This document shows positions 40,742-64,000 of a DNA stretch of 64,000 nt, piece after piece. Both the position numbers and the translations under genes were made by a program. The stretch comes from Caulobacter soli. Lineage in GTDB: Bacteria > Pseudomonadota > Alphaproteobacteria > Caulobacterales > Caulobacteraceae. The notes under the pieces were generated by a model. The model was given only the letters and a program-made list of their open reading frames with translations. It had not been told where the DNA came from and searched no databases. Every line of letters begins with the position of its first letter. The stretch's first letter is position 1. The stretch covers positions 434,001-498,000 of the forward strand of contig NZ_CP049199.1 of the NCBI RefSeq assembly GCF_011045195.1, given 5' to 3'.

Positions 40742-40757
40742 GAGCCGTCTCTCCGCG

Positions 40758-41447
40758 TCAGGCGACAAACCGGTAGCCGATCCCCGGTTCGGTCAGGATG
40801 ATCTTCGGCGTCGCCGGATCGGCCTCCAGCTTGTGGCGAAGCTGGCCGACGAAGACGCGCAGATACTGGGTGTCGTGGGCGTGGGCCGCGCCCCAGACGG
40901 CGACCAGAAGTTCCTTGTGGGTCAGCACCTTGCCCGCGCCCAGCGCCAGGCGGACCAGCAGGTCGTATTCCTTGGGCGAGACCTTCACGGGCGTCCCGCC
41001 CCGGGTGACCAGCCGCTTTTCCAGGTCGATCTCGACGTCGCCCGCGCGGATCGGCCCGGTGGGCGCCGGCGCGCGCGCGGACTGGCGCAGGGCGACGCGC
41101 AGCCGGGCCAGCAGCTCGCCCACCCCGAAAGGCTTTTCGACATAGTCGTTGGCGCCCCGGTCCAGGGCCTCGATCTTCTCGACCTCGCGGTCGCGGGCCG
41201 ACAGGATGACGATCGGCCCGTCATAGAAGGCCCGGGCCTTGGCCAGCACCTCCTTGCCGTCCATGTCGGGCAGGCCCAGGTCCAGCACCACGGCGTCGGG
41301 CGACCACAGGGCGATGCCGCGCAGGCCCTCCTGGCCGCTGTCGGCGCGCAAGGGCTCGTAGCCGGCCGCGTCCAGCGCGGGGCCGAGGAACCGGTGGATC
41401 TGGGGCTCGTCGTCGATGACGAGGATGCGATGGCGAAGCGCGGTCAT
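40758..41447 (-). CDS. kdpE: KdpE response regulator
   Basis: 229-aa OmpR/PhoB-type regulator. The receiver has ILVIDDEPQIHRFL, the phosphoacceptor in AVVLDLGLPDMDG, and Lys in YVEKPFG; the C-terminal winged helix includes VSPKEYDLLVRLALG and ILTEPGIGYRF. It lies 7 nt after kdpD and is the last gene of the kdp run. Phosphorylated by KdpD, it activates kdpFABC; a KdpE-like box is found at 49603-49619. Confidence 0.95.
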   Translation of the reverse strand: MTALRHRILVIDDEPQIHRFLGPALDAAGYEPLRADSGQEGLRGIALWSPDAVVLDLGLPDMDGKEVLAKARAFYDGPIVILSARDREVEKIEALDRGANDYVEKPFGVGELLARLRVALRQSARAPAPTGPIRAGDVEIDLEKRLVTRGGTPVKVSPKEYDLLVRLALGAGKVLTHKELLVAVWGAAHAHDTQYLRVFVGQLRHKLEADPATPKIILTEPGIGYRFVA

Positions 41448-41454
41448 GATGCAG

Positions 41455-44148: not shown

Positions 44149-44727
44149 CTATCCGCCTTTCGGGAAACGGGCGTCGAGGGCGCGGTTGACCGCCAGGACG
44201 TTGACGCGCGGCTGGCCGATGAAGCCCAGCAACGGCGGCAGAACCTGACTGTCGACCACGGCCAGGACGGCCGCCTCGGGCGCGCCGCGCGCCTTGGCGA
44301 TCCGCTTGGCCTGGAAGCGGGCATAGGCCGGCGAGATGTCCGGGTCCAGCCCCGAGGCCGAGGTCGTCACGGCGTCGGCGGGGATGGCCGCGCCAGGGTT
44401 TTCGGCGCGCAGGGCGTTAGCCTCTTCCTTCTCGCGGGCGATCAGCTTGTCGTTCAGCGGACCCATGTTGGAGCCGCTGGACGCCGAGGCGTCGTAGCCG
44501 TTGCCGGCCGCCGACGGACGCGGGTGCAGATATTCGGCCTTGGCGAAAGGCTGGCCGATCAGGGCCGAGCCGACGATCGCGCCCTTGGCGTCGCGCAGCA
44601 GCGAGCCGTTGGCTTGGGCGGGGAAGGCGGCCTGGGCGACGCCGGTGACGGCCAGGGGATAGGCCAGGCCCAGCAGAACCGTGAACAGGCCCATCGAGAC
44701 GATGGCGGGGCGAAGGTGCGACAGCAT
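44149..44727 (-). CDS. kdpC: KdpC, K+-ATPase accessory subunit
   Basis: 192 aa, one N-terminal membrane segment (about 6-28, MGLFTVLLGLAYPLAVTGVA) and a periplasmic domain. GSALIGQPFAKAEYLHPRPS and SASGLDPDISPAYARFQAKR are KdpC-conserved blocks. It stabilises the KdpAB complex and increases ATP affinity. It is separated from kdpB by two other genes, which is not the usual kdpFABC order. Directly upstream of kdpD, so it is co-transcribed with it. Confidence 0.95.
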   Translation of the reverse strand: MLSHLRPAIVSMGLFTVLLGLAYPLAVTGVAQAAFPAQANGSLLRDAKGAIVGSALIGQPFAKAEYLHPRPSAAGNGYDASASSGSNMGPLNDKLIAREKEEANALRAENPGAAIPADAVTTSASGLDPDISPAYARFQAKRIAKARGAPEAAVLAVVDSQVLPPLLGFIGQPRVNVLAVNRALDARFPKGG

Positions 44728-44741
44728 GGTTTCAGCCTCTT

Positions 44742-45431
44742 CTAGAACGTGGCCTTGAGCGTGGCGACGGCGCGGCTGTCGTACAGCTTGCCGAAGTCAT
44801 GCTGGTCGGTGTCGACATAGCGCAGGTCCAGGGCGAGCTTGTCGTTGATCGCATAGGCCGCGCCCAGATTCCAGGTCGTGTAGTCGCCGGGGCCCTTGTA
44901 GGTCTGGCGTCCCAGCGCGCCCGAGACGCTCCATTTCGCGGCCACCGGATAGCTGCCGTTGACCTCGTAATAGGTGGCTTCGTCGGCGGCGCCGAAGCTG
45001 TCGGGGCTGTAGAACACCGCGCCGCCCAGCGAACCCTTGCCGGCGGGAACCGAGGCCGCGACCTTGAACTCGGTGTTGGCGTAGTCCGCCCCCGAGGGCG
45101 CGTCGACATAGCCGTAATAGATCACGCCCAGGTCCAGGGTCGCGGGACCCAGGGTCGGCTTGAAGCCGGCGTAGAGATCGATCTCGGCGTCGGTGGAGTC
45201 GTTGAAGTCGACGTTGGAGGCCCAGGTCCCGGCGTAGAATTTGCCGGCCGTCAGGTCGACGCCGCCGAACAGCTGGGCGTTCTCGTCGGTCTGGCTGACG
45301 CCCCGGAACGCATAGTCGGAGGCGACGCCGACATTGTAGCTCAGCTGGGGCCCGGCCTGCGCCGAGACGGCGCCGGCCGACACGGCCAGGGCGCCGATGG
45401 CGAGCAGAGCGGGGAAAGCGAACTTGGTCAT
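44742..45431 (-). CDS. TorF/Gcw_chp-family putative outer-membrane porin within the kdp operon
   Basis: 229 aa. Signal peptide to about residue 25 (FPALLAIGALAVSAGAVSA). The mature chain is all beta: YNVGVASDYAFRGVSQTDEN is the TIGR02001/TorF hallmark, then paired aromatic strands, ending SRAVATLKATF with a terminal Phe. A 12-strand-like outer-membrane barrel is expected. It sits between kdpB and kdpC, an insertion seen in some alphaproteobacteria. I infer a K+ permeation or osmotic link, on context only. Confidence 0.85.
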   Translation of the reverse strand: MTKFAFPALLAIGALAVSAGAVSAQAGPQLSYNVGVASDYAFRGVSQTDENAQLFGGVDLTAGKFYAGTWASNVDFNDSTDAEIDLYAGFKPTLGPATLDLGVIYYGYVDAPSGADYANTEFKVAASVPAGKGSLGGAVFYSPDSFGAADEATYYEVNGSYPVAAKWSVSGALGRQTYKGPGDYTTWNLGAAYAINDKLALDLRYVDTDQHDFGKLYDSRAVATLKATF

Positions 45432-45467
45432 GGAAGTCGGTCTTTCAGGAAAGAAACTTGGCGAGGT

Positions 45468-45548
45468 TCAGAGGGCTTGAGCGGTCACGGCGGCCAGAAT
45501 GATCAGGCCGATCGCGCCGACGCCGAACAGCAGGTCGCGCAGGATCAT
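45468..45548 (-). CDS. 26-aa single-span membrane micro-ORF between kdpB and the porin gene
   Basis: [16 protein letters not shown] is followed by LAAVTAQAL: one short charged N-terminus and a single hydrophobic helix. Its ATG shares one base with the kdpB TGA (TGATG), which argues for coupled translation of a real peptide. The KdpF counterpart is at the other end of kdpA, so this would be an additional small subunit. Length and hydrophobicity resemble KdpF-type stabilising peptides. Not certain to be expressed. Confidence 0.55.
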   Translation of the reverse strand: MILRDLLFGVGAIGLIILAAVTAQAL

Positions 45549-47629
45549 CACGCCCACCCCAGGCCGGAGACGATCATGTCGATCAGCTTGATGCCGATGA
45601 ACGGGGCGACCAGGCCGCCCAGGCCGTAGATCATCAGGTTTCGCGACAGCAGCTTGCCGGCCCCGACAGCGCGGTACTTCACGCCCTTCAGCGCCAGGGG
45701 GATCAGGGCGACGATGACCAGGGCGTTGAAGATCACGGCCGACAGGATCGCGCTTTGCGGGCTGTGCAGCTTCATGACGTTCAGGGCGCCCAGGGCGGGC
45801 AGGGCGACCACGAACATGGCCGGGATGATGGCGAAGTACTTGGCCACGTCGTTGGCGATCGAGAAGGTCGTCAGGGCGCCGCGGGTGATCAGCATCTGCT
45901 TGCCGACCTCGACGATCTCGATGACCTTGGTCGGATCGCTGTCGAGATCGACCATGTTGCCGGCCTCGCGGGCGGCCTGGGCTCCGGTCTGCATGGCCAC
46001 GCCGACGTCGGCCTGGGCGAGCGCGGGCGCGTCGTTGGCCCCGTCGCCGCACATGGCCACCAGCCGGCCCTTGCCTTGCTCCTCGCGGATCAGCCGCAGC
46101 TTGTCCTCGGGGGTGGCCTCGGCCAGGAAGTCGTCGACCCCGGCCTCGGAGGCGATGGCGGCGGCGGTCACCGGGTTGTCGCCGGTGATCATCACCGTGC
46201 GCAGGCCCATGCGGCGCAGGTCGGCGAAGCGTTCCTTGACGTTGGGCTTGACCACGTCCTTGAGGTGGATGACGCCGACCAGGACGCCGTCCTCGCTGAC
46301 CGCCAGCGGCGTGCCGCCCGAGCGGGCGATGCGATCGACGGCGGCGGCCACCTCGGCCGGCACGGTCTTGGGATCGATGGCCAGCGCGCGATAGACCGCG
46401 TCCACCGCGCCCTTGCGCCAGGAACGCCCGTTGTGGTCCAGGCCCGACTGGCGGGTCTGGGCGGTGAACGGGATCGACACCGCACCGGCCGGCGTCTCGG
46501 CCGTCAGGCCCTGGTTACGGGCCAGTTCGATGATCGAGCGACCTTCGGGCGTCTCGTCGGCCAGCGAGGCCATCAGGGCCGCGCGCAGGGCCTGGTCGGG
46601 CCGCACGCCGGGGGCGGGGATCACCTCGACCGCCATGCGGTTGCCGAAGGTGATGGTGCCGGTCTTGTCCAGCAGCAGGGTGTCGACGTCGCCGGCGGCT
46701 TCCACCGCCCGGCCCGAGGTGGCCAGGACGTTGACCTTCAGCAGGCGGTCCATGCCGGCGATGCCGACGGCCGACAGCAGGCCGCCGATCGTCGTCGGAA
46801 TGAGCGTGATGAACAGCGCGCCCAGCACCAGCGGATCCAGCGCCACGCCCGAGAACTTGCCCAGGCCCAGCAGGGTGACGACCGCGATCAGGAAGATCAG
46901 GGTCAGGCCCGCCAGCAGCACGGCCAGGGCGATCTCGTTGGGCGTCTTGCGACGGTCGGCGCCTTCGACCATGGCGATCATGCGGTCCAGGAACGTCGAG
47001 CCGGCCTCGGCCGTGACCCGCACCTTGATCCAGTCCGACACCACCGTGGTGCCGCCGGTGACGGCCGAACGGTCGCCGCCGCTTTCGCGGATCACCGGCG
47101 CGCTTTCGCCGGTGATCGCCGCCTCGTTGACGCTGGCCATGCCCTCGATGATCTCGCCATCGGTGGGGACCACGTCGCCGGCCTCGATCAGGATCACCTC
47201 GCCGAGGGTCAGCTTGTGGGCCGGGGTCGGGATCCAGGCGCCGTTCTCGGGATCGATGATCAGCTTGGCCTTGGTGGTCACCCGCGTGGCGCGCAGGCTG
47301 TCGGCGGCCGCCTTGCCCCGCCCTTCGGCGACGCTTTCGGCCAGGTTGGCGAACAGCACCGTGGCCCACAGCCACAGCGAGACCTGGATCGCGAAACCGG
47401 CGGCCTGGTGGTCGGCGATGGCGGCGACGGCCGAGACCGTCGACAGCAGGGCCACGACCCAGGTGGCGAAGATCACCGGATTGCCGGTCAGCTTGCGCGG
47501 ATCCAGCTTGAGGAAGGCCTCGCGCAGGGCGCGGGCCAGCACCGGACCCGAGAGGCCGCCGGCCAGGGCGGCCGACTTGCGGCGGCCCTCGCCAGCATTG
47601 ATGTCCAGAGAAGTCATGAGGTCACCCAT
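45548..47629 (-). CDS. kdpB: KdpB, P-type ATPase subunit
   Basis: 693 aa. [11 protein letters not shown] holds the phosphorylated Asp, [13 protein letters not shown] the actuator loop, [16 protein letters not shown] the P-domain hinge, and [15 protein letters not shown] the kdpB membrane region. It hydrolyses ATP to drive K+ uptake through KdpA. ATG 47629 overlaps the kdpA stop (TGATG); a second ATG at 47617 ([10 protein letters not shown]) is equally possible. It ends with TGA sharing a base with the micro-ORF start. Confidence 0.96.
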
Positions 47630-49341
47630 CAGTGGAAGGCGGCGACCGCGGCGAGCGCTTGGAAATGCTCGACGATCGGTCCCAGCGCCATCGCGGGGAA
47701 GAATTGCAGGCCGCCCAGGATCAGGATCACCCCGATCAGGAGGCCGATGAACAGGCCGCCATCGGTCGGCAGGGTGCCGGCGCTGGGGGCGAGCTTGGGC
47801 TTGGCGGCCAGGGCGCCGGCGATGGCCAGGACGGCGATCATCGGGATGAAGCGGCCCAGCATCATCGCCACGCCCAGGGTGATGTTCCACCAGGGCGCGT
47901 TGGCCGTCAGTCCGCCGAAGGCCGAGCCGTTGTTGGCCGTGCCCGAGACGTAGGCGTAGAGGATCTCAGACAGGCCGTGCGGCCCCGCGTGCATCAGGCC
48001 CTTCAGCGCCTCGGGCAGGATCGCGGCGACAGCCGAGAAGCCCAGCATCGACAGCGGCACGATCAGCACGGCCAGCATGGACAGCTGGATCTCGCGCGCC
48101 TCGACCTTCTTGCCCAGATATTCGGGCGTGCGGCCGACCATCAGTCCGGCCACGAACACCGCCAGCAGGGCCATGACGACCATGATCGCGATGCCCGAGC
48201 CGATGCCGCCGGGCAGGATCTCGCCCAGTTGCATCAGGAACATCGCCATGGCGCCGCCCAGGGGCATCAGGCTGGAATGCATGCCGTTGACCGAGCCGTT
48301 CGAGGCCCCGGTGGTCATGGCGACCCAAGCGGCGGTCGAGGGGGCGCCGAAGCGGACCTCCTTGCCTTCCATGTTGACCGAGGTGTCGACATGGGCGGCG
48401 ACCTGGGCCGGGGCCGGACGGGTCTCGGCGGCGTAGACGCCGGCCGCGCCGGCGGCCAGCAGCAGCGAGCCGGCGATGACCAGGGCGCGCACGTCCTTCC
48501 TGGCCAGGGCCGAGCGGCCGAAGGCGAAGAAGGCGGCCCAGCCCAGCACGTTGATCGACACGGCCGTGATCAGGTTGGTCAGCGGGGTGGGGTTCTCGAA
48601 CGGGTGGGCGGAATTGACGTTGAAGATCCCGCCGCCGTTGATGCCCAGCTGCTTGACCGCCAGCTGGCTGGCGGTGGCGAACAGCGAGATCTTCTGCTCG
48701 CCGCCCTCCAGGGTGTGGGCGGTGACGCCGGCCGCCAGGGTCTGGGGCACGCCCAGGGCGACCAGGACGACCGCCACGACGAAGCACAGCGGCAGCAGCA
48801 CGTAGAGCGTGGTGCGGACCAGGTCGGCCCAGAAGTTGCCGACGCCCTGGCCGCGATTGGCGATGAAGGCTCGGGCCAGAGCGGCGGCGATGGTCGCGCC
48901 GGTGGCGGCCGAGACGAAGTTCTGCACCGTCAGCACCAGCATCTGGCTGAGCGTCGACATGGTGGTCTCGCCGCCATAGCTCTGCCAGTTGGTGTTGGTC
49001 ACGAAGCTGGTGGCGGTGTTGAAGGCCAGATGCGGCGACAGGCCGGCGAAGCCTTGCGGGTTCAGCGGCAGCACGCCCTGCAGCCGCAGCACGGCGTAGA
49101 CGAACAGGAAGCCCACGGCGTTGAAGGCCAGCAGGGCGCCGGCGTAGCCGTACCAGGTCTGGCTCTTGGTCGGATCGACGCCGCAGGCGCCGTAGAAGAC
49201 TTTCTCGATCGGCCGGAGCACGGGGTCGAGCCAGGTGCGCTCGCCGTTCCAGACGCGCGACATGAAGACGCCCAGCGGCCAGCCAATGCCGACCGCCAGG
49301 CCGAGGGTGAGGGCGATCTCCGCCCATCCTTGCCAGGTCAT
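47629..49341 (-). CDS. kdpA: KdpA, K+-translocating subunit
   Basis: 570 aa polytopic membrane protein with about ten spans. [27 protein letters not shown] and [14 protein letters not shown] are filter-loop regions typical of the KdpA/Trk-like fold, with the glycines of the K+ selectivity filters. It forms the channel-like path for K+ that KdpB powers. ATG 49341, 13 nt after kdpF; its stop overlaps the kdpB start. Confidence 0.96.
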
Positions 49342-49354
49342 GAAAATAGGTCCG

Positions 49355-49441
49355 TCAGAACTTGTCGGGCCGCAGCATCGCCGCGACCATGTAACCGGCG
49401 ACGGCGATCGCCCCGGCCGCCCAAAGCACGCTCACCAACAT
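49355..49441 (-). CDS. kdpF: KdpF, small stabilising subunit
   Basis: 28 aa, one membrane helix ([18 protein letters not shown]) and the typical short tail LRPDKF. Position immediately upstream of kdpA and size fit KdpF. ATG 49441 lies 2 nt after the stop of another micro-ORF; the next gene kdpA begins 13 nt later. Too short for most gene finders. Confidence 0.88.
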
Positions 49442-49443
49442 GG

Positions 49444-49527
49444 TCAAACGCGCCTCAGCCCCGCCGCGAACGCGGCGAAAACGACGAAGAGGCCAAGCCC
49501 CATCGCCACATAAATCAGGTCAGCCAT
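49444..49527 (-). CDS. 27-aa membrane micro-ORF opening the kdp operon
   Basis: MADLIYVAMGLGLFVVFAAF then a short basic tail GLRRV: a single-span peptide. It is 2 nt before the kdpF ATG. Small peptides with a similar 'DLIY.A.GLGLF' start precede kdpF in several alphaproteobacterial kdp operons as far as I recall. It lies 76 nt from the KdpE-like site. I think it is real but unassigned. Confidence 0.6.
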   Translation of the reverse strand: MADLIYVAMGLGLFVVFAAFAAGLRRV

Positions 49528-49602
49528 ACGCCGCCTCCATTCCTATGGCCGGTTGAAGACCACGGAGCGGCGTAAGGCCTCCATGCGGAAAGCGGGGCTG
49601 GA

Positions 49603-49619
49603 TGTAAGGGCGATATAAG
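49603..49619 (-). promoter_or_regulatory. KdpE-like operator upstream of the kdp operon
   Basis: On the minus strand, CTTATA-TCGCC-CTTACA matches the E. coli KdpE site (TTTATA-N5-TTTACA) in spacing and differs only at the first base of each half. It lies 76 nt before the first micro-ORF in a 326-nt gene-free region (49528-49853) shared with the divergent autotransporter gene. No other regulatory element in that gap is clear; a CTCGGC/GCCGAG hairpin at about 49813-49833 lies near the autotransporter start. Confidence 0.55.
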
Positions 49620-49853
49620 GACCGTCGCCGATCGACGTCGTGAGGCTCCGTCGGTGAAGAACCGTCTCACGGATCCGTGCCTACACGGGCTTTCGAACAC
49701 GCCCGCCTTCACGTCGAAGGCTGTTGTTAAGGATCTTGTGGTTCCCATCGGGGCAGGCAATCGGCCCTTGGGGGGGCGCGCCTGTCCCTTGCCCTTCTCG
49801 GGAAACAGCCAAGCTCGGCGCCCTTTTGGCCGAGACGATAGGAACGCGCGCTC

Positions 49854-52800
49854 ATGATGTCTCCCGCTCGCCTCTGCGGTTCGGCCGCCTTCCACCGGGT
49901 GCTCCTGGCGGGCACGTCCGTGATGGTGCTGACCGCGATGCAGCCGGCCATGGCGCAGACCACGACGATCAGCTCGGCGATCACCGCGACGCAGACGATC
50001 GCGTCGGGGACCAGTCTGTCGATCACCTCCACGGGCAGCATCGCGACGACGGCGTCCGACGGCGTCTCGATCCCCAGCAACGTGTCGATCGGGTCGATCT
50101 GGAACGACGGCGCGATCACCGTTCCTTCGGGGAACAACGGCATATATGGCCTGAACAACAACACGATCACGGGGATCACCAACACCGGGACGATCAGCGG
50201 CGGCGTCCGCGGCATCCGCTGGGATGGCGGGCGCGTGGGCACGATCAGCAACGGCGCCACGGGCCTCATTCAGGCGTCGAGCTACGCCCTGCTGCTGCGC
50301 GCCAATGTCGCCGTCACCTCGATCAGCAACGCCGGCACGATCAACAGCAACACCGGCTACGCCCTGTATCTCGAGACCGCCGGCTCGTCGGTCGACACGA
50401 TCACCAACAGCGGCACGATCAGCGGCGGCAGCGGCCTCTACACGGCCGGCGGCACGGTTGGCACGCTCACCAACAGCGGCCTGATCCGCGGCACCGCGAC
50501 TGGCGGCACCGACGCGGCCGTGTATTTCAACGCCTCGGTCGGCGCGGTCAACTTCACCAACACCGGCACGATCGTCGGCGCGATCCGCGATCAGCGCACC
50601 AGCGGTCTCACCATCACCGGCGGCTCGGGCTCCACGTTCGGCACGCTGATGGGGACGACCAGCTCGACCGCCTCGACCATCGTGTCGCAGGGCGGCGTGA
50701 CCTTCGCCGGCAACACCTATCTCGCCGACAACGTCACGTCGCAGGCGGGAGCGGGCACGGTCACCAACACCGGCGTCCTGATGACGGGGCGCGCGACGCA
50801 AATCACCGGCGCCTACAGCCAGTCGGGGGCGGCGCAGCTGGTCGTGCTGGTGACCTCGGGCGCCGCCTACGGCGCCCTGACCGTGTCGAGCGGTGCGACG
50901 CTGACCAACGGAACCATCGTCATGCAGGCGGCCCCGTCCGGCACGCTCACGGCGGGCGACTACACGATCGTCAGCGGCAGCGTCACCGGCACCGACTATA
51001 CCGGCGTCTCGGTCACCGCGACCGGCTTCACCGCGACCACCGCCACCACCATCGTCGGCTCCACCAACAGGCTGGTCGTCACCCTCGCCGCGGTGGTCAC
51101 GCCGCCGCCCCCGCCGCCCCCGCCGCCCCCGCCGTCGCCGCCCCCGCCGCCCCCGGCGACGACCACCGTCGACACCAGCCAACCGTATTTCACCTTCGCC
51201 GACCCAGCCGGCAGCGGCCAGACCGTCACCTTCAACGGCGGCACGCTGCAGGTGGCGCAGAACACCACGACCGGGCAGGACCTGGTGGTGCTGGCGACCG
51301 GCGGCGTCATCGACACCAGCCGGAACCAACTGGTCCTGAGCGGCAACGTCACCAACGCCGGCACGCTGCAGATCATCGGCGGCGGCGAGGTGGTCTCGAC
51401 CGGCACCATCACCGGCGGCACGACCACGGTGACCAACACCCAGCTTCGCCTCAACGGCACGCTCAACGGCGCCCTGCAGATCGGGTCGAACGCCACCCTG
51501 CGCGGCGTCGGCACGGTCAACGGCCTGGCCACGATCGCCGGCAGGCTGGCGCCCGGCAATTCGCCGGGGACCTTGACCTTCACCAAGCCGGTCACCCTCA
51601 CCGACACCGCCGTCCTGTCCATCGACATCGACGGCAAGGGAACGGGGGCCGGCGCGGGCAACTACTCGCGCGTCATCGTCAGCGGCGCGCCGATCACGGT
51701 GGCCGGCGCGCTGCGGCCGGTCCTGCGCGGCATCACCGGCGCCGCCAGCAACAGCTTCACGCCGGCGCTGGGCGATCGGTTCAACATCATCCACGCCGAC
51801 GGCGGGGTGACGGGCGCCTTCTCGACCCTGGACCAGCCCGCCAGCGGCATGGCGGCCGGCACGCGGTTCGACGTGCTCTATCGCTCCAGCGACCTGGACC
51901 TGGTCGTGACGCCCGCGGCCTATGGCGACCTGGCGGCGCTTGGCCTTGGGCAGACGTCCAACCAGCGCGCCGCCGGCCGAGCGCTCGACGCCCGACGCCC
52001 GGCGGCGGCTGAGATCGTCCAGGCCGGATCGGTGTTCGGCGCCCTCTATGGCCTGTCGCCCCAACAGATCGGTCCGGCCCTGGACCAGGTGGCCGGCGCG
52101 GTGCACGGCGAGTCCCTGTTGGCCGGCATGGCGGTGCAACGCCATTTCTCGGCCATTCTCGACGACCGACTCTCGACCCTTCGCAATGGCCAGGTCGGTG
52201 ATCTGCAGCAGGCCAGCCGGGCGGGCCTGGGCGGGGTGCAGTATGCGTCGAACGGCGAGCGCCTGCCCGCGTCGTCGGCCTTGGCGGCCCAGGATCGACC
52301 GGTCTCCGGCGTTCGCGCCTGGGGCCAGGTCTTTGGCCTCATCGGCGAACAGGACAGCGACGGCAACGCCTCGGAGGCCCACAACCGCGTCGGCGGCGCC
52401 GTGGCCGGCTCCGACGTGACGCTGGAGGACGGGACGGTGCTGGGCGCGGCCCTGGGCTTTGGCCACAGCGAACTGCGCACCAAGGCCGCGTCCCAGGCCG
52501 AGCTCGATGTCGTGAACCTGTCGCTCTACGCCTCGGCCAGTTTCGGTTCGGCCTTCGTCGACGGCCAGGCCAACGGCGGCTGGACGCAGACGCAGTCGCG
52601 TCGCCGGATCGAATTCGGCGGTCTCGACCGCACGGCCACCGACACTTCCGACGGCTGGAACGGCGGCGCCGCGATCCGCGCGGGCTTCGTGCAGCAGGCG
52701 GCCGCCTACAGCGTCGAGCCGTCGATCGGCCTGCGCTACGACCACATCGATCGTGACGCCGTGGGTGAAGCCGGCGGCGGCGACCTGGCCCTGCGGGCGA

Positions 52801-53132
52801 GCGCCACCGACATTGACGCGCTGCGCTCGACGGCGATGGTTCGCATCCAGCGGGAGATGACGGTCGGGACGGCCACCGTCGCGCCGCGCCTGCGGCTGGG
52901 CTGGGCCCATGAGCTGGGCGACCGTTATGCGGTCAGCACCAACAGCTTCCAGAGCGGCGGCGCGGCGTTCCTGGTGCAGAGCAACCGCCTGGACCGTGAT
53001 CGCCTGCTGGCCGGCTTCGACGTCTCGGCGACGGTGTCGGACAAAGTGCGCTTCTACGTCGATTACGGCTTGGAACTGGGCGAGAACAGCAGCAGCAACG
53101 CCCTGACGGCCGGCCTACGCTACACTTGGTAG
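49854..53132 (+). CDS. Autotransporter with repetitive beta-helix passenger and C-terminal barrel
   Basis: 1092 aa. The signal peptide MMSPARLCGSAAFHRVLLAG runs to about 36 (AMAQ). The passenger (about 36-410) is made of Gly/Ser/Thr/Asn-rich repeats with TNSGTISGG and TNTGTI-like units, followed by a Pro-rich linker (about 415-437, over 15 Pro). A second passenger segment (about 440-680) contains the GTLQI, GRLAPGNSPGTLTF block of AIDA-like proteins. The autotransporter barrel (about 820-1092) ends GLRYTW with an aromatic residue. It would be surface-displayed, and adhesion or biofilm functions are usual. Start ATG 49854, with AGGAA upstream; next genes follow within 40 nt. Confidence 0.9.
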   Translation: MMSPARLCGSAAFHRVLLAGTSVMVLTAMQPAMAQTTTISSAITATQTIASGTSLSITSTGSIATTASDGVSIPSNVSIGSIWNDGAITVPSGNNGIYGLNNNTITGITNTGTISGGVRGIRWDGGRVGTISNGATGLIQASSYALLLRANVAVTSISNAGTINSNTGYALYLETAGSSVDTITNSGTISGGSGLYTAGGTVGTLTNSGLIRGTATGGTDAAVYFNASVGAVNFTNTGTIVGAIRDQRTSGLTITGGSGSTFGTLMGTTSSTASTIVSQGGVTFAGNTYLADNVTSQAGAGTVTNTGVLMTGRATQITGAYSQSGAAQLVVLVTSGAAYGALTVSSGATLTNGTIVMQAAPSGTLTAGDYTIVSGSVTGTDYTGVSVTATGFTATTATTIVGSTNRLVVTLAAVVTPPPPPPPPPPPSPPPPPPATTTVDTSQPYFTFADPAGSGQTVTFNGGTLQVAQNTTTGQDLVVLATGGVIDTSRNQLVLSGNVTNAGTLQIIGGGEVVSTGTITGGTTTVTNTQLRLNGTLNGALQIGSNATLRGVGTVNGLATIAGRLAPGNSPGTLTFTKPVTLTDTAVLSIDIDGKGTGAGAGNYSRVIVSGAPITVAGALRPVLRGITGAASNSFTPALGDRFNIIHADGGVTGAFSTLDQPASGMAAGTRFDVLYRSSDLDLVVTPAAYGDLAALGLGQTSNQRAAGRALDARRPAAAEIVQAGSVFGALYGLSPQQIGPALDQVAGAVHGESLLAGMAVQRHFSAILDDRLSTLRNGQVGDLQQASRAGLGGVQYASNGERLPASSALAAQDRPVSGVRAWGQVFGLIGEQDSDGNASEAHNRVGGAVAGSDVTLEDGTVLGAALGFGHSELRTKAASQAELDVVNLSLYASASFGSAFVDGQANGGWTQTQSRRRIEFGGLDRTATDTSDGWNGGAAIRAGFVQQAAAYSVEPSIGLRYDHIDRDAVGEAGGGDLALRASATDIDALRSTAMVRIQREMTVGTATVAPRLRLGWAHELGDRYAVSTNSFQSGGAAFLVQSNRLDRDRLLAGFDVSATVSDKVRFYVDYGLELGENSSSNALTAGLRYTW

Positions 53133-53169
53133 GACGCCGTCCCGCCAACCCGTGCTTGAAAGGCTTGTG

Positions 53170-53691
53170 ATGCTCGCATCCATGGCGAAAGCAATCCTGC
53201 AGCCAATCCTGTTGGCCGCGATGCTTGTCCTTGCCGGCAGTGGCCCAGCCCTCGCGGCGCCGGACAAGCCAGACGGCGCCGCCGGGCCGCTGTGGAGCAA
53301 GCAATGCACCCGCGACGACGCGGGGCGCGAGATCTGCTACGTCGAGCAATACGCCGTCGCCATGCCGGGGAACACGGTGCTGCTGAACGTCAGCATGGCG
53401 TTCACGGGGCAGGGCGGCCGGGCGCGGCTCGTCATCACGGCGCCGCTCGGCGTCCAGCTGATCCCGGGACTGGTCATGACGATCGACGCGGGAAAGCCCG
53501 TCACCCTGCCGTTCGAGAGCTGCCATGCCGGCGGCTGCCGCATGATCGTGGAGCTCGACGAGCAGAGCCTCGACCAGATCCGGCGCGGCGCCGGCATGAC
53601 GGTGCGGTTCGTCAACGCCGACGGCAAGGCGCTCGACATCCCGGTTCCGCTGAAGGGGCTGGCGGCCGCCCTGAAGCAACTGCAGTCGTAG
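53170..53691 (+). CDS. IalB-family secreted protein
   Basis: 173 aa with a Sec signal (LQPILLAAMLVLAGSGPAL). The mature part has SKQCTRDDAGREICYVEQ, MAFTGQGGRARLVITAPLG, FESCHAGGCRMIVELD and GMTVRFVNADGKALDIP, the pattern of invasion-associated locus B proteins, with four cysteines that can pair. ATG 53170 with GAAAGG upstream is preferred; a GTG at 53152 is in frame. IalB proteins were named from Bartonella erythrocyte invasion, but most in free-living bacteria have no known role. Between an autotransporter and glycosyltransferase genes it might assist surface display. Confidence 0.85.
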   Translation: MLASMAKAILQPILLAAMLVLAGSGPALAAPDKPDGAAGPLWSKQCTRDDAGREICYVEQYAVAMPGNTVLLNVSMAFTGQGGRARLVITAPLGVQLIPGLVMTIDAGKPVTLPFESCHAGGCRMIVELDEQSLDQIRRGAGMTVRFVNADGKALDIPVPLKGLAAALKQLQS

Positions 53692-53699
53692 GACGGCGC

Positions 53700-54638
53700 A
53701 TGGCCCGCAAGCCGCCGAAGCTGGCCCTCGGTTCCCAACCCAAGCCGGAGCAGCCCGAGGTCGTCCCCGTGGAGACCGCCATCGACCTGGCTTACCGTCA
53801 TTGGGAAGCCGGCCAGGCCCAGCAGGCGGAGATGCTGTGCCGGCGGGTGCTGGAGGTCTGGCCGGGCCAGGCCGACGTCCTTCACCTGCTGGGCTTGATG
53901 GCCCATGCCTACGGCCAGCATGACGCGGCGGTCGACTATCTGAAGCAGGCCTGCGCCGCGCCCGGCGCGCCGGCGGCCTATTTCAATAATCTCGGCGAGA
54001 TCTGCCGCCAGCTGAACCGCCTGGCGGAGGCGGAGCAGGCCGCCCGTCGGGCCACGGCGCTCGACGAGACCGCCCCCGCCGTCTGGAACAATCTCGGCAT
54101 CATCCTGCAGGAAGCCGGAAACCTCGAGGAAAGCGCGCAATGCCTGCGGCGCGCGCTGGCCCTGGCGCCTGATTTCGCCGAGGGGCACAACAATCTCGGC
54201 AACACCCTGCGCCTGCTGACCCGGCTGGAGGACGCCGCCGACAGCTACCGGCAGGCGATCCGCCTCAATCCTCTCTATACCGACGCGCTCGGCAATCTCG
54301 GCCGCCTGACGGGCGAGCAGGGGCAGCCCGACGAGGGGCTGGTCCTGCTGCGCCGCGCGATCGAGATCGACCCCCACATGGGGGACGCCTACGCCTATGC
54401 CGCGATGCTGGAAGGCGACCGCCAGCGCTGGCCGCAGGCCCTGGGCTGGCTGGAGGCGCTGCGCGACTTCGCCCCCAATCACCCCAGGCTGCCGCTCGGG
54501 CTTTCCAGGGTCCTGCGCGAGCTCGGCCGGCTCGACGAAGCGCTGGCGATGGCCGACGCCGTCCTCGCCGCGGTCCCGGGCCATGCGGCCGCTCTGGAGG
54601 CCCGCGAACTGGCCCTGCGGGCGCGAGCGGCCCGGTGA
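53700..54638 (+). CDS. TPR-repeat protein
   Basis: 312 aa from ATG 53700, no signal peptide. About seven tandem TPR units are visible (IDLAYRHWEAGQAQQAEMLC, FNNLGEICRQLNRLAEAEQA, WNNLGIILQEAGNLEESAQ, HNNLGNTLRLLTRLEDAADS), with conserved Ala/Gly/Leu spacing. It resembles the N-terminal scaffold of SPINDLY/OGT- and FlmG-type glycosyltransferases without the catalytic half. Its stop overlaps the next gene's GTG by four bases, so the two may be halves of a split enzyme or a scaffold and a catalyst. Confidence 0.85.
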   Translation: MARKPPKLALGSQPKPEQPEVVPVETAIDLAYRHWEAGQAQQAEMLCRRVLEVWPGQADVLHLLGLMAHAYGQHDAAVDYLKQACAAPGAPAAYFNNLGEICRQLNRLAEAEQAARRATALDETAPAVWNNLGIILQEAGNLEESAQCLRRALALAPDFAEGHNNLGNTLRLLTRLEDAADSYRQAIRLNPLYTDALGNLGRLTGEQGQPDEGLVLLRRAIEIDPHMGDAYAYAAMLEGDRQRWPQALGWLEALRDFAPNHPRLPLGLSRVLRELGRLDEALAMADAVLAAVPGHAAALEARELALRARAAR

Positions 54639-55777
54639 CGGCCGAGGCCGAGGTGCAGGCCCTGCTGGCGGTGGGACAGCCCGAACAGGCCGAGGCCCGC
54701 GCCCGGCACGCGATCGCCTCGGGCGGCGGCGCCGCCTGTTGGCAGGGGCTGGCCGTGGCGCTGCGTCTCCAGGGGCGTATCGAGGAGGCTCTGAAGGTCT
54801 ACGACCAGTTGGTCGACACCCTGCCCGGCAATCTCACCTTCCGCTTCGAGCGGGGCGAACTGCTGCTGCTGCTGGGCGACTTCGAGCGCGGCTGGCGGGA
54901 CTACCATTACCGCTATGGCATGCCGCATACGGTCCAGCTGGAGCGACGGGTCCAGCGGCCGCGCTGGGACGGGCGGCCGATGCCGGGCCGGACCCTGCTG
55001 ATCCATGACGAACAGGGCTTTGGCGACACCTTCCAGTTCATGCGCATGGTCGCCTGGGCGAAGGACCGTAGCCAGGCCCGCATCGTGCTGCAGATCAACG
55101 CCGACCAGGCCGCCTTCGCCCGGCGCCTCGCCGGGGTGGACGAGATCGTGTTGCGCGAGGCGCTGCCGCCGCCCTTCGACAGCCATTGCGAGATGATGAG
55201 CCTGCCGATGGTCATGGGCCTGCAGCTGGCCGACCTGCCGGGCGCCATCCCCTATCTCCGCGCGGACGCCGGTCGGCTGAAGCGATGGCGCAAGCGGTTG
55301 GCCGGGCTGCCCCGGCCGCTGGTCGGCCTGGTCTGGGCCGGGCGGCCGACCCACCTCAACGACGCCAACCGGTCGCTCGCCCTCTCGGCGCTGGCGCCCC
55401 TGGCCATGCCGGGCGTCACCTTCCTCGCCCTGCAGAAGGGACCGGCGGAGGCGCAGGCGGCCGCGCCGCCGTCCGGCATGCGGATCGAGCGCCTCGGCGA
55501 CGAGATCGCCGATTTCGAGGACACCGCGGCCATACTGAGCCTGGCCGACCTGCTGATCTCGGTCGACAGCGCGCCGGTGCATCTGGCCGGCGCCCTGGGA
55601 CGTCCGGCCTGGGTCATGCTGCCCCGCGTACCCGACTGGCGCTGGCTGCTGGGCCGCGACGACTCGCCCTGGTATCCGAGCTTGCGCCTGTTCCGCCAGC
55701 CGGCGCGCGGCGACTGGGCTTCGGTCACGACCAAGGTCGCCGCCGCGCTCGAGGGCATGGCCCGACCGCCGCGCTGA
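54635..55777 (+). CDS. TPR-glycosyltransferase (GT9/FlmG-like)
   Basis: 380 aa. About 1-90 form two or three TPR units, about 100-380 a GT-B-like transferase: LLIHDEQGFGDTFQFMRM, VGLVWAGRPTHLNDANRS, LSLADLLISVDSAPVHLAGA and ALGRPAWVMLPRVPDWRWLL. SVDSAPVHLAGALG is the nucleotide-sugar site of heptosyltransferase-like GT9 enzymes and FlmG-type protein glycosyltransferases. Cytoplasmic. GTG 54635 overlaps the TPR gene. Genes of this type next to surface proteins often glycosylate them; the autotransporter passenger at 49854 is rich in Ser, Thr and Asn. Donor sugar unknown. Confidence 0.87.
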   Translation: MTAEAEVQALLAVGQPEQAEARARHAIASGGGAACWQGLAVALRLQGRIEEALKVYDQLVDTLPGNLTFRFERGELLLLLGDFERGWRDYHYRYGMPHTVQLERRVQRPRWDGRPMPGRTLLIHDEQGFGDTFQFMRMVAWAKDRSQARIVLQINADQAAFARRLAGVDEIVLREALPPPFDSHCEMMSLPMVMGLQLADLPGAIPYLRADAGRLKRWRKRLAGLPRPLVGLVWAGRPTHLNDANRSLALSALAPLAMPGVTFLALQKGPAEAQAAAPPSGMRIERLGDEIADFEDTAAILSLADLLISVDSAPVHLAGALGRPAWVMLPRVPDWRWLLGRDDSPWYPSLRLFRQPARGDWASVTTKVAAALEGMARPPR

Positions 55778-55868
55778 TCGCCGGCGCGCCGCGCACGCAA
55801 AGCCTTTGTGGGCAACGGGACTTCGCGACGGCTAAGGCCGTCCGCGAACATCTATGACCAGGGGGTGG

Positions 55869-55958
<90 letters not shown>

Positions 55959-59510: not shown

Positions 59511-62030
59511 ATGCGCGCGATCCGCACCACCTTGCTCATGACGGCCGTCAGCGCCTTCGCGCTCAGCGCCGGTGTCGCCCATGCGGCCGAGCCGGACGCC
59601 GCCGCGCCCGATCAGATCGAGGAACTGCTCGTCACCGCCCAGAAGCGCGAACAGAAGACCCTCGACGTGCCGATCGCCCTGACCGCCTATTCGGGCGGCA
59701 TGCTCGACAAGCTGGGCGTCCAGGAATTCGACCGGCTGTCCAGCTTCGTGCCTGGCTTCCAGGTCCAGAACCAGTCGCCCAACAACCCCGGCTTCGTCAT
59801 GCGCGGCATCACGTCGGACAGCGGCGAGGCCACGGTCGAACCGCGCGTCTCGGTGTTCCAGGACGGCGTGTCGATCTCCAAGTCGCGCGGCTCCTACATC
59901 GAGCTGTTCGACATCCAGCGCATCGAAGTGGCCAAGGGCCCGCAATCGACCCTGTTCGGCCGGGGCGCGCTGATCGGCGCGGTCAACGTCATCCAGAACA
60001 AGGCCGATCCGAAGGCGCTGGACTGGCGCGTGGGCGCGGAGCTGGGCGACCATGGCTACGGCCTGTTCGAGGGCATGGCCAACGTGCCGCTGAGCGACAC
60101 CTTCGCCGTCCGCTTCTCGGGCCGCTACAAGGAGCGCGACGGCGCGGTCGAGAACCTGCTGGGCGGTCGGAACCTGGGTTCGACCGACACCGGCGCGGCC
60201 CGCCTGTCGTTCCGCTGGACCCCGACCGACAAGCTCGACGCCAACCTGATCCTCAACTACGAGGCCGATCATCCGACCGGCACCTCGTTCAAGTCCAACA
60301 GCTTCAACCCCACCGACCCGACCACCGGCCAGGTCCTGGGCGATCGCGATCCCAACAGCGGCGCGGCCCTGCAGGCCGGCCCGGGCTTCAACGGCGGCGC
60401 CCAGCTGGGCCTCAAGCGCTTCGTCCAGGGCGCCACGGCCCTGGTGGACTACAAGTTCAACGACGCCCTGAAGCTGTCGTCGATCACCTCGGCCCGTCAC
60501 TTCCAAAGCAACGAGACGTTCGATCCGGACGGCTTCTCGCTGCCGATGCTGACCTTCGCCGAGGACGCGCGCAGCACGCAGTACAGCCAGGAATTCCGTC
60601 TGAACTGGGACAATGGCGGCCGCTTCAGCGGCTTCGGCGGCGTCAGCTACTTCAACGAGGACGCCCAGACGGCCGTGCCTTCGCAGATCGACGAGCGCTA
60701 CGCCCTGGGCCTGATCACCGGCGCGATGACCAAGCCCAACCCCCAGCCGGCCGCCGTGCTGACCAGCGCGGCGATGCTGCAGGCCGAGGTGGCGGGCCTG
60801 ATGGGGCTCAAGGCCGGCAACCCGCTGCTGGCCTATGTCCCGGGCATCGCCAACAACCTGCATGTCCATCGCGAGAGCTACACCAACTACGGCAAGACCG
60901 AGTCGTTCGACGTCTATGGCGACGGCACCTGGCGCATCAGCGACCAGTTCGAGCTGTCGGCCGGCCTGCGCTACACCCACGACGACAAGTCCAGCGGCTA
61001 CGCCTCCAGCGTCCAGGACCGCTCACTGCTGGGCGCGCTGATCGCCCTGCCGTCGGTGCTGCCGACGCTTTCGCCCACCCAGCAAGTCCAGTTCATCCAG
61101 GCGCTCGCGGCGCCCGGCGCGGCCGGCATCCCGACCTCGGCCGCCTATCCGATCCCGATGTTCGGCATCGTCTCGCAGCCGACCCGCAACAACGGCGACA
61201 TCTTCTCCAAGGACTTCTCCGACGAGGGCCTGACCTGGCGCCTGGTGGGCCGTTACAAGCCGAACGCCGACACCAGCGTCTACGCCTCCTACGCGCGCGG
61301 CCGCCGTCCCGAGGTGATGTCGACCGGTCAGCCGGCGGCGCCGGGCGGCGCGGCCAAGTTCACGCCGGTCGACGCCGAAACGGTCGACTCCTACGAGGTC
61401 GGCGCCAAGACCCGCACCCTGGGCGGTCGCCTGGGCCTGGAAGGCGCGGTCTACGCCTACAACTACGACAACTTCCAGACCACGATCCTGGTCAACACCA
61501 AGCCGACCACCACCAACGCCGGCAAGGCCAAGGCCTATGGCTTCGAAGGCCAGGCGACCTGGCAGGCGGCCTCGTTCGCCGAGCTGTTCGCCACCTACGC
61601 CTACAGCCACGGCCGCTTCGACACCGGCCTCTACGACGGCAACCGCTTCCGCCTCTCGCCGGACAACAAGGCCTCGTTCGGCGCGACCTTCTCGGCCGAG
61701 GCCCTGAACGGCCGGTTCAGCTTCACGCCGCTCTACACCTGGCAATCGAAGGTGTTCTTCTCGGACGACAACGACATCGCCGCCCTGCAGGTCAGCAACC
61801 TGCTGCCCGATACGGCGGTCGACGAGTTCCAGAAGAGCTACGGCCTAGTGGATCTGCGCCTGGAATACCAGCCGTCGTTCGCCAACTGGAAGGTCGGGGC
61901 CTTCGTCACCAACGCCACCGACAAGAAGTACATCAAGGACGCCGGCAACACCGGCGACGCCTTCGGCATCCCGACCTTCATCGCCGGCAACCCGCGCTAT
62001 TACGGCGTGACGTTCTCGCTGCGGCGGTAG
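59511..62030 (+). CDS. TonB-dependent outer-membrane receptor
   Basis: 839 aa. Signal peptide MRAIRTTLLMTAVSAFAL to AHAAEP, TonB box-like region QIEELLVTAQKREQKT, plug with FDIQRIEVAKGPQSTLFGRG and the barrel ending YYGVTFSLRR. This is the 'TAQKREQ' subfamily typical of alphaproteobacteria, often for small lipophilic ligands or siderophores, different from the sugar-type receptors earlier in the window. ATG 59511 follows AAGGGG. It is isolated: no transporter, regulator or enzyme is in the same operon. Confidence 0.92.
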   Translation: MRAIRTTLLMTAVSAFALSAGVAHAAEPDAAAPDQIEELLVTAQKREQKTLDVPIALTAYSGGMLDKLGVQEFDRLSSFVPGFQVQNQSPNNPGFVMRGITSDSGEATVEPRVSVFQDGVSISKSRGSYIELFDIQRIEVAKGPQSTLFGRGALIGAVNVIQNKADPKALDWRVGAELGDHGYGLFEGMANVPLSDTFAVRFSGRYKERDGAVENLLGGRNLGSTDTGAARLSFRWTPTDKLDANLILNYEADHPTGTSFKSNSFNPTDPTTGQVLGDRDPNSGAALQAGPGFNGGAQLGLKRFVQGATALVDYKFNDALKLSSITSARHFQSNETFDPDGFSLPMLTFAEDARSTQYSQEFRLNWDNGGRFSGFGGVSYFNEDAQTAVPSQIDERYALGLITGAMTKPNPQPAAVLTSAAMLQAEVAGLMGLKAGNPLLAYVPGIANNLHVHRESYTNYGKTESFDVYGDGTWRISDQFELSAGLRYTHDDKSSGYASSVQDRSLLGALIALPSVLPTLSPTQQVQFIQALAAPGAAGIPTSAAYPIPMFGIVSQPTRNNGDIFSKDFSDEGLTWRLVGRYKPNADTSVYASYARGRRPEVMSTGQPAAPGGAAKFTPVDAETVDSYEVGAKTRTLGGRLGLEGAVYAYNYDNFQTTILVNTKPTTTNAGKAKAYGFEGQATWQAASFAELFATYAYSHGRFDTGLYDGNRFRLSPDNKASFGATFSAEALNGRFSFTPLYTWQSKVFFSDDNDIAALQVSNLLPDTAVDEFQKSYGLVDLRLEYQPSFANWKVGAFVTNATDKKYIKDAGNTGDAFGIPTFIAGNPRYYGVTFSLRR

Positions 62031-62045
62031 GTCAGCGGGCTTTCG

Positions 62046-62186
62046 CTCCTCCCCCGTGCAACGGGGGAGGGGAACCGCGTAGCGGTGGAGGGGGCGTCCC
62101 CCACTGCAGTGCGGTGGCCGGACGCCCCCTCCGTCACGATGCGTATTCGCATCGCGCCACCTCCCCCGCGATGCGGGTGAGGAGCG
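62046..62186. repeat. Long inverted intergenic repeat, related to that at 870-1108
   Basis: Arms 62046-62098 and about 62122-62186 are imperfect reverse complements: CTCCTCCCCCG...GGGGGAGGGG...GGAGGGGGCGTC against GACGCCCCCTCC...CCACCTCCCCCGCG...GAGGAG. Each arm contains its own hairpin (CCCCCGTGCAACGGGGG; GATGCGTATTCGCATC). The architecture matches the 870-1108 pair (hairpin, GGAGGGG, GCGGTGG, variable tail). It fills the gap between the converging TonB receptor and the ferritin-like gene, and abuts that gene's stop codon. Confidence 0.85.
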
Positions 62187-62489
62187 CTACTTGCTCTCTT
62201 CCTCGCGGCCGGCGATCGAGCCGTCCGTGAACAGATATTCCTTCAGCTGGGCGTCGGTCTCCGGATCGCTGCGGCGCAGCCACTCAAGCACCATGGCCGC
62301 GTGCTCCAGCTCCTCGCGGGCGTTGTGCGGCAGGATCTTCTTCAGTTCCGCATCGTCGCAGTCGTCGGCCCGCTGACGGTATCAGTTCACCGCCTCCAGC
62401 TCCTCGATCAACGAGGTGATGGCGTAATGCTGGTTCAGGGTCTTGCCCCGCAGCTTTTCGCGCGGGACGTGGAGGCCTTCGCTGGACAT
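62187..62489 (-). pseudogene. Encapsulated-ferritin-like gene with an in-frame TGA at codon 36
   Basis: Reading from ATG 62489 gives 100 codons, with a TGA at codon 36 (62382-62384). The protein is an EncFtn-type ferritin-like protein: NQHYAITSLIEELEAVN before, then YRQRADDCDDAELKKILPHN and EELEHAAMVLEWLRRSDPET. The conserved Glu, Glu-His (EELEHA) iron ligands are all present. In Rhodospirillum EncFtn the residue between 'EELEAVD' and 'Y' is Trp38; the TGA therefore replaces a Trp codon by one base (TGG to TGA). The C-terminal encapsulin-targeting peptide is not seen. No encapsulin gene is in the window. Either a nonsense mutation, a sequencing error or read-through. Confidence 0.82.
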
Positions 62490-62572
62490 GCATCGTCATC
62501 CTACTGTTGTCTCCAGGGGCTAACGCACGAGAAGGCCAAGCGGCGCCGTGTGCTTCCCGATCGGAGATGAGC

Positions 62573-64000
62573 ATGACCATCGACAGACGCCGGGCCCTGG
62601 CCCTCTTCGGCCTGGGCGGCGCGAGCGCGGCCGGCGAGGCGATGGCGGCGACGCCCAGGGCGGTCTTCGACGGGCGCGTGGCGTTCAAGCACGGGGCGGC
62701 CTCGGGCGATCCGCTGGACGACCGCGTGATCCTGTGGACCCGGGCCACCGCCGAGGCCACGACCGCGCCGATCGCCCTGCGCTGGGACGTGGCGACCGAT
62801 CCGGCCTTCAAGACCATCGTCCGCCAGGGTCAGGTCACCGCCGTCGCCGCCCGCGACTACACCGCCAAGGTCGACGTCACGGGGCTGAAGCCGGCCACGG
62901 ACTATTTCTACCGCTTCCGCCACGTGAAGAACGGCAAGCCGGCCGGCAAGGCCGTGACCGGGCGCACCCGCACCCTGCCCAAGGGACCGACCCGCGACGT
63001 CGTCCTGGCGGCGGTGTCGTGCAGCCTCTATCCGAACGGCTATTTCAACGCCTATGACGCGATCGCCAAGCTGGCGCGCGTCGACGCCGTGCTGCACCTG
63101 GGCGACTATATCTATGAGTACGGCGCGGGGCCCGACGACTACGGCATGAACGCGCCGACCGCCAAGAGCCGCGTGCCCGATCCGCCGCGCGAGATCGTCA
63201 GCCTGGACGACTATCGCCGCCGCCACGCCCTCTACAAGACCGACCCGGCCCTGCAGGCCGCCCACGCCCGCGCGCCGTGGATCTTGGTCTGGGACGACCA
63301 CGAAACCGCCAACGACAGCTGGATCGGCGGGGCCGAGAACCATCAGCCCGCGACCGAGGGCGACTGGGTCAAGCGCAAGGCCGCGGCGATCAAGGCCTAT
63401 TACGAGTGGATGCCGATCCGCGAGCCGGCGGCGGGGACCCTGCCCGAGGCCGCCTGGCGCCGCTTCCAGTTCGGCGACGTGGCCACCCTGCTGATGACCG
63501 AGACCCGGCTGACGGCGCGCAGCCACCAGCTGGACTACGGCCACGATTTGACGCTGAAGGACGGGGCTCCCGACTTCGCCGCTTTCGCCGCCAAGCTGAA
63601 GGATCCGGACCGCCGGATGATGGGCCAGGGCCAGGAGCAGTGGCTGGCCCGCGAGGTCGACGCCTCGGTCAAGACCGGCACGGCGTGGCAGGTGCTGGGT
63701 AACCAGGTGGTCATGGCCCGGGTGGCCGCTCCCAACCTGAAGACCGTGATGGGCGACCAGGCCTACGGCGCCCTGCTGGCCAAGCTGCCGGCCAATGTCG
63801 CCAAGCTGGTGGAGCAGAGCCGGGCGCTGTCGGCGGTCGACACCCCCGGAAACCTCGACGCCTGGGACGGCTATCCGGCCGACCGCGAGCGGGTCTACGA
63901 CATCTTCAAGGCCGGCAAGGCCCGGCCGATCGTGCTGTCGGGCGACAGCCACGCCTTCTGGGCCAACGAGCTGTGGGACGACGCGGGCACGACGCGGGTG
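62573..64000 (+). CDS. phoD: Alkaline phosphatase D family protein (3' end outside window)
   Basis: 476 residues visible, no stop before the right edge. DRRRALALFGLGG is a twin-arginine-like signal, cleaved near AMAA. Then a Fn-like N-terminal domain (FKHGAASGDPLDDRVILWTRA is the PhoD opening signature) and the phosphodiesterase domain with VLHLGDYIYEYG, VWDDHETANDSW, GNQVVM and VLSGDSHAFWA, the metal/active-site motifs of PhoD. It is an exported Ca/Fe-dependent phosphodiesterase/phosphomonoesterase used in phosphate scavenging. ATG 62573 follows GGAG; ATG 62567 is in frame too. Divergent from the ferritin-like gene. Confidence 0.93.
   Translation, partial: MTIDRRRALALFGLGGASAAGEAMAATPRAVFDGRVAFKHGAASGDPLDDRVILWTRATAEATTAPIALRWDVATDPAFKTIVRQGQVTAVAARDYTAKVDVTGLKPATDYFYRFRHVKNGKPAGKAVTGRTRTLPKGPTRDVVLAAVSCSLYPNGYFNAYDAIAKLARVDAVLHLGDYIYEYGAGPDDYGMNAPTAKSRVPDPPREIVSLDDYRRRHALYKTDPALQAAHARAPWILVWDDHETANDSWIGGAENHQPATEGDWVKRKAAAIKAYYEWMPIREPAAGTLPEAAWRRFQFGDVATLLMTETRLTARSHQLDYGHDLTLKDGAPDFAAFAAKLKDPDRRMMGQGQEQWLAREVDASVKTGTAWQVLGNQVVMARVAAPNLKTVMGDQAYGALLAKLPANVAKLVEQSRALSAVDTPGNLDAWDGYPADRERVYDIFKAGKARPIVLSGDSHAFWANELWDDAGTTRV

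Follow-up and report, generated by a model that had tools for sequence, protein, structure and literature searches.

A probable recent nonsense mutation in a short, apparently shell-less EncFtn-family gene of Caulobacter soli

The window, by which we mean the whole 64,000-nucleotide stretch of Caulobacter soli DNA analysed here, contains near its end a ferritin-like gene of the encapsulated-ferritin (EncFtn) family, which lies between a gene for a TonB-dependent receptor and a gene for a PhoD-family phosphatase (phoD; Table 1). The minus-strand translation of 62187–62489 reads MSSEGLHV...EELEAVN, a stop, YRQRADD...EELEHAAM...REEESK and the terminal stop, in agreement with a preliminary description of the locus as a 100-codon minus-strand frame with one TGA at codon 36. 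This TGA is the only internal stop; the frame downstream of it is open through codon 100 and the first in-frame start past it is Met66. The gene order TonB-dependent receptor, EncFtn, phoD is kept in two relatives (genomes G035 and G033). A GC-rich, inverted-repeat-like sequence, recognized by eye, occupies positions 62040–62185 between the convergent receptor and EncFtn-like genes. No sigma-70 promoters or terminators were found in a scan of 61900–62700. The other apparent interruptions of open reading frames in the window fall either upstream of likely starts or in frames judged to be non-genes, a judgement that is our own reading of overlap and codon-position bias and not the output of a gene-finder.

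Table 1. Positions of the EncFtn-like gene, its altered codons and its neighbours in the window.
Feature	Position	Strand	Basis or remark
EncFtn-family ferritin-like gene (fits the s-FLP class), 100 codons	62190..62489	minus	TGA at codon 36; PF22277 profile, structure-chain alignment
Terminal stop TAG of the EncFtn-like gene	62187-62189	minus	
In-frame TGA, codon 36	62382..62384	minus	Translation; homolog alignment
Codon 35 (Asn)	62385..62387	minus	Asp in 230/230 other distinct rows
Codon 54 (Pro)	62328..62330	minus	Within predicted helix 47-74
TonB-dependent receptor gene	59511..62030	plus	Convergent with the EncFtn-like gene, open frame
Intergenic region, 77 bases, separating the starts of the divergent EncFtn-like gene and phoD	62490..62566		Conserved against six relatives
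PhoD-family phosphatase gene	62567..64000	plus	Divergent; open past the window end, closes in the genome

Elsewhere in the window, a stretch at about 40719–55860 has no match longer than 200 bases to the retrieved G035 and G033 segments. Its G+C content of 0.71 is not unusual and, by eye, it carries an autotransporter-like open reading frame (49854–53132) together with TPR-like frames. The stretch ends beside a tRNA-Ser (CGA) gene (55869–55958), and no second copy of the 3' end of this tRNA gene was found within the 64 kb window.

With the TGA read as Trp, the protein matches the EncFtn-like profile PF22277 with an E value of 1.4e-37 and a score of 127.8 bits (cut-off 27), which bears out the earlier assignment to the EncFtn family. 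The top NCBIfam match is TIGR04535 (encapsulin-associated ferritin-like protein; E value 3.6e-32), yet its score of 110.7 bits lies below the curated cut-off of 125. Among proteins of solved structure, the window protein is closest to the uncharacterised NE0167 and to the encapsulated ferritins from R. rubrum and Haliangium. The read-through protein as modelled with AlphaFold2 (mean pLDDT 89.7) shows two long helices, at residues 15–42 and 47–74, and its fold matches R. rubrum Rru_A0973 (5da5_A) and NE0167 (3k6c), in each case with a TM score of 0.82 and 56% identity. Residues 2–95 align with residues 4–97 of Rru_A0973, which places codon 36 at residue 38 of that protein. The preliminary description had given the same position as Trp38 and had set this residue beside the Tyr and Glu ligands of the metal entry site; the position stands, whereas the role was not confirmed, the term 'Trp38' being absent from the main text of the 2016 EncFtn structure paper (PMC5012862). 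The ferroxidase ligands named in that text for R. rubrum EncFtn (Glu32, Tyr39, Glu62 and His65) have as their aligned counterparts E30, Y37, E60 and H63, all present in the read-through frame, and the iron ligands are thus intact as first reported. E30 precedes the stop, which sits in predicted helix 1 ahead of Y37; Y37, E60 and H63 all lie 3' of it.

Codon 36 is Trp in each of the 120 homologs listed (of 2614 matches), and TGG in 104 of 105 fetched loci, a set assembled by two retrieval routes and containing duplicates; the lone exception is the window itself. The stop is therefore a one-step change at a conserved Trp, as had been claimed, and orthologs with another residue here, which were to have told against that claim, do not occur among the 120. 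Since Trp and its TGG codon are conserved at this position and the sequence upstream of the gene is conserved as well, the TGA is a lesion in a genuine gene, at least as the deposited sequence stands. The accompanying statement that all other conserved residues are intact is contradicted at two sites. Asn directly before the stop replaces an Asp found in every other distinct row of the alignment (D35N). At codon 54 the window has Pro in place of the Leu seen in 207 of 231 rows (L54P); Pro recurs in one other row, P0040, which is uninterrupted. After removal of duplicate rows and of rows with more than ten gaps, at least two such conserved-site changes were counted in four of the 111 rows whose nearest neighbour is at 88–95% identity, the window included, and in 19 of all 231 rows.

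Within the family of the window's genome (Caulobacteraceae), the gene was matched in 97 of 390 genomes. Comparison across relatives, which had been proposed as a check, places an internal stop in only one of these 97, the window's own genome. Members of the family can do without the gene, given that 293 of the 390 genomes, and 239 of the 311 of good quality, have no match. An EncFtn copy with TAG at codon 22, a Tyr position, occurs in a metagenome bin labelled Proteobacteria (locus L068), the contig title of which gives a coverage of 0.07.

The family-1 encapsulin profile PF04454 had no match in 101 genomes, that of the window included, none in the 97 gene-bearing family genomes and none in the 32 genomes or records that stand behind 32 of the 80 named EncFtn loci; as a control, it matched three of 14 well-known genomes. 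Some of these absences could be gaps, since 72 of the 97 genomes reach 90% completeness with contamination of no more than 5%. Across all 390 family genomes PF04454 exceeded its cut-off in two (G177 and G275) and gave six weak partial matches below it, and the 97 gene-bearing genomes include none of these eight. G177 and G275 (loci L191 and L190) belong to another genus of the family; these two genomes have a family-1 encapsulin and no match to the EncFtn-like gene. The family-2 profile PF19307 matched none of the 101 genomes, but the control genomes gave no match either.

Going by gene content and predicted length, 'encapsulated', the term used at first, is a misnomer, and the protein as translated fits the short s-FLP class described in passages of a 2024 review (PMC11202242): it has 100 codons, ends in ...GREEESK and carries no targeting-peptide extension. 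The s-FLP protein NE0167 of Nitrosomonas europaea is similar, with about 95–100 residues and no C-terminal targeting extension; the window copy differs from it in being broken at codon 36, with Asn preceding. The C-terminus of the class is of the LFTD-x-x-IA type, represented in the window by LFTDGSIAGRE. In the same passages the review gives the targeting peptide LFTD(E/N)KPIAHE as putative and uncharacterised, and treats encapsulation of the short EncFtn proteins via an undefined signal as an open question. Rru_A0973 resembles the window protein in its fold and in the four ligands; unlike it, Rru_A0973 has 140 residues with a targeting peptide (PMC11202242, in part) and works with an encapsulin, neither of which was found here.

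The intergenic region upstream of the EncFtn-like gene contains a block, GGCGCCGCTT...GTGCGTTA in the minus-strand sense, that the window shares with six close relatives and in which few positions vary; it is a possible candidate for a shared promoter or operator. A PhoD homolog was found in the fetched flanks of 26 of the 80 named EncFtn loci and is divergent in all 26, with the two starts at most 150 bases apart in 21 of them. The divergent arrangement is seen at 62490–62566 in the window and in loci L026–L062. Gene content and gene order together suggest a shell-less class in partnership with phoD.

We consider that the EncFtn-like gene is probably a recently inactivated pseudogene of this short, apparently shell-less type and that its product would be cut off after residue 35. 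The data are best fitted by a nonsense mutation of recent date, and loss rather than recoding is the most likely account. Compared with the two nearest relatives, the private changes of the gene comprise five amino-acid changes, one stop and nine synonymous changes; with nine of 15 private codon changes synonymous, constraint held until recently, for most of the branch. In 18 neighbouring genes there are 156 non-synonymous or stop changes against 467 synonymous private changes, and the excess of amino-acid changes in EncFtn (6:9) is not significant (Fisher p = 0.23); the 18-gene set, filtered on a third-position share above 0.55, excludes nine of 27 open reading frames, among them EncFtn and the TonB receptor gene. 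These 18 genes contain no private stop in the window and one in G035, which shows that single apparent stops occur elsewhere too. The window copy is like ordinary bacterial nonsense-mutation pseudogenes in its single stop, its otherwise open frame, its dispensability and the uninterrupted copies of its relatives. Unlike them it resembles recoding, as the affected codon is one for a nearly invariant Trp. The preliminary description had offered a recent mutation and a suppressed stop as alternatives; the share of synonymous changes speaks for the former, and the tRNA and codon data speak against the latter.

Near-cognate reading of UGA by tRNA-Trp inserts Trp, and suppressor alleles of tRNA-Trp are known from E. 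coli. A stop exactly at a Trp codon, followed by a frame open to codon 100, is what would be expected if UGA were decoded as Trp often enough to matter, by suppression or programmed read-through, and full-length protein were made. We regard this as very unlikely. The 47 tRNA genes found in the genome were all typed and comprise one tRNA-Trp, with anticodon CCA, and none with anticodon TCA, so that the UGA-reading Trp tRNA that had been suggested as a check is not among them. Moreover, all 76 bases of the tRNA-Trp agree with those in eight relatives, including G035, G033 and G017, whose EncFtn copies carry TGG at codon 36, which argues against a suppressor allele. All 70 Trp codons in the 18 neighbouring genes that are conserved in G035 and G033 are TGG in the window, and the absence of the stop from the other 96 gene-bearing family genomes indicates that it is not a conserved device. 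An in-frame UGA inside a metal-site gene also brings selenocysteine to mind, to which we attach a negligible probability, as was anticipated from the outset: the homologs have Trp and not Cys at this position, no tRNA-Sec was found among the 150 scored of 1250 first-look candidates (ten model matches were all ordinary tRNAs, the sole one over the cut-off being a tRNA-Ser) and SelB had no match over the cut-off in the genome, eight weaker matches being judged to be related GTPases. Suppressor tRNA, selenocysteine and general reassignment of UGA were each rejected on the tRNA typing, the SelB search and the 70 of 70 TGG codons.

A base-calling or assembly error, with the gene intact in the living strain, is unlikely but carries appreciable weight. 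The species is represented by one genome and, as no listed homolog exceeds 94% identity, the stop lacks the support of a second strain. The stop and D35N are, in addition, five bases apart and, relative to G035, agree in both the type of change and the strand, so that one mutational event could account for both, as could one technical event such as a local artefact. Against an error, the assembly is rated 100% complete with 0.98% contamination in two contigs, and within the part of the window that two relatives share, EncFtn is the sole interrupted gene judged to be real. The neighbouring D35N, if real, would be unusual in an intact gene, and D35N and L54P together lean towards a real loss over an isolated miscall, short of proof. 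Conservation of the bases immediately before the start means that a short product may be made, and could favour a new function for the 35-residue N-terminal product or for the product, also of 35 residues, that would start at Met66. This we hold to be highly improbable; a search with the post-stop part returned no short-form relative among the matches listed, the shortest of 120 listed proteins (of 1627) having 82 residues.

If the gene has been lost by a nonsense mutation, as we favour, the truncated product would hold just part of helix 1 and, without the equivalents of Tyr39, Glu62 and His65, would be unable to assemble the di-iron ferroxidase centre, to which two chains contribute; a restart at Met66 would come too late for rescue. 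Basal read-through of UGA by ordinary tRNA-Trp is known from work on E. coli and could still yield a trace of full-length protein. The ancestral protein was probably a ferroxidase of the cytosol that assembled into decamers, had no encapsulin shell and was encoded divergently from phoD. Three ordinary ferritin-superfamily genes (PF00210) are present in the genome, and the loss is thus probably tolerable.

Tentatively, and with more doubt than confidence, the intact relatives may be seen as having a shell-free EncFtn system paired with PhoD, of which pair the window's genome would be a natural loss mutant. The EncFtn proteins would then be decameric ferroxidases, the 'targeting peptide' proposed at the C-terminus of s-FLP proteins would have another role, the pair would share its conserved divergent promoter region, and ferric iron would be made or buffered for phosphate acquisition. 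PhoD of B. subtilis holds one Fe3+ and two Ca2+ ions, according to a passage in PMC6713934, and the Fe3+ is located in the active site. The stop itself is ordinary and matters little, one dispensable gene having been lost in one lineage; a more rewarding lead is offered by the shell-less class linked to phoD. That none of the 97 gene-bearing genomes matches a family-1 encapsulin argues that the s-FLP class functions without that shell, and through the conserved divergent phoD neighbour a connection of iron oxidation with phosphate acquisition can be put to the test.
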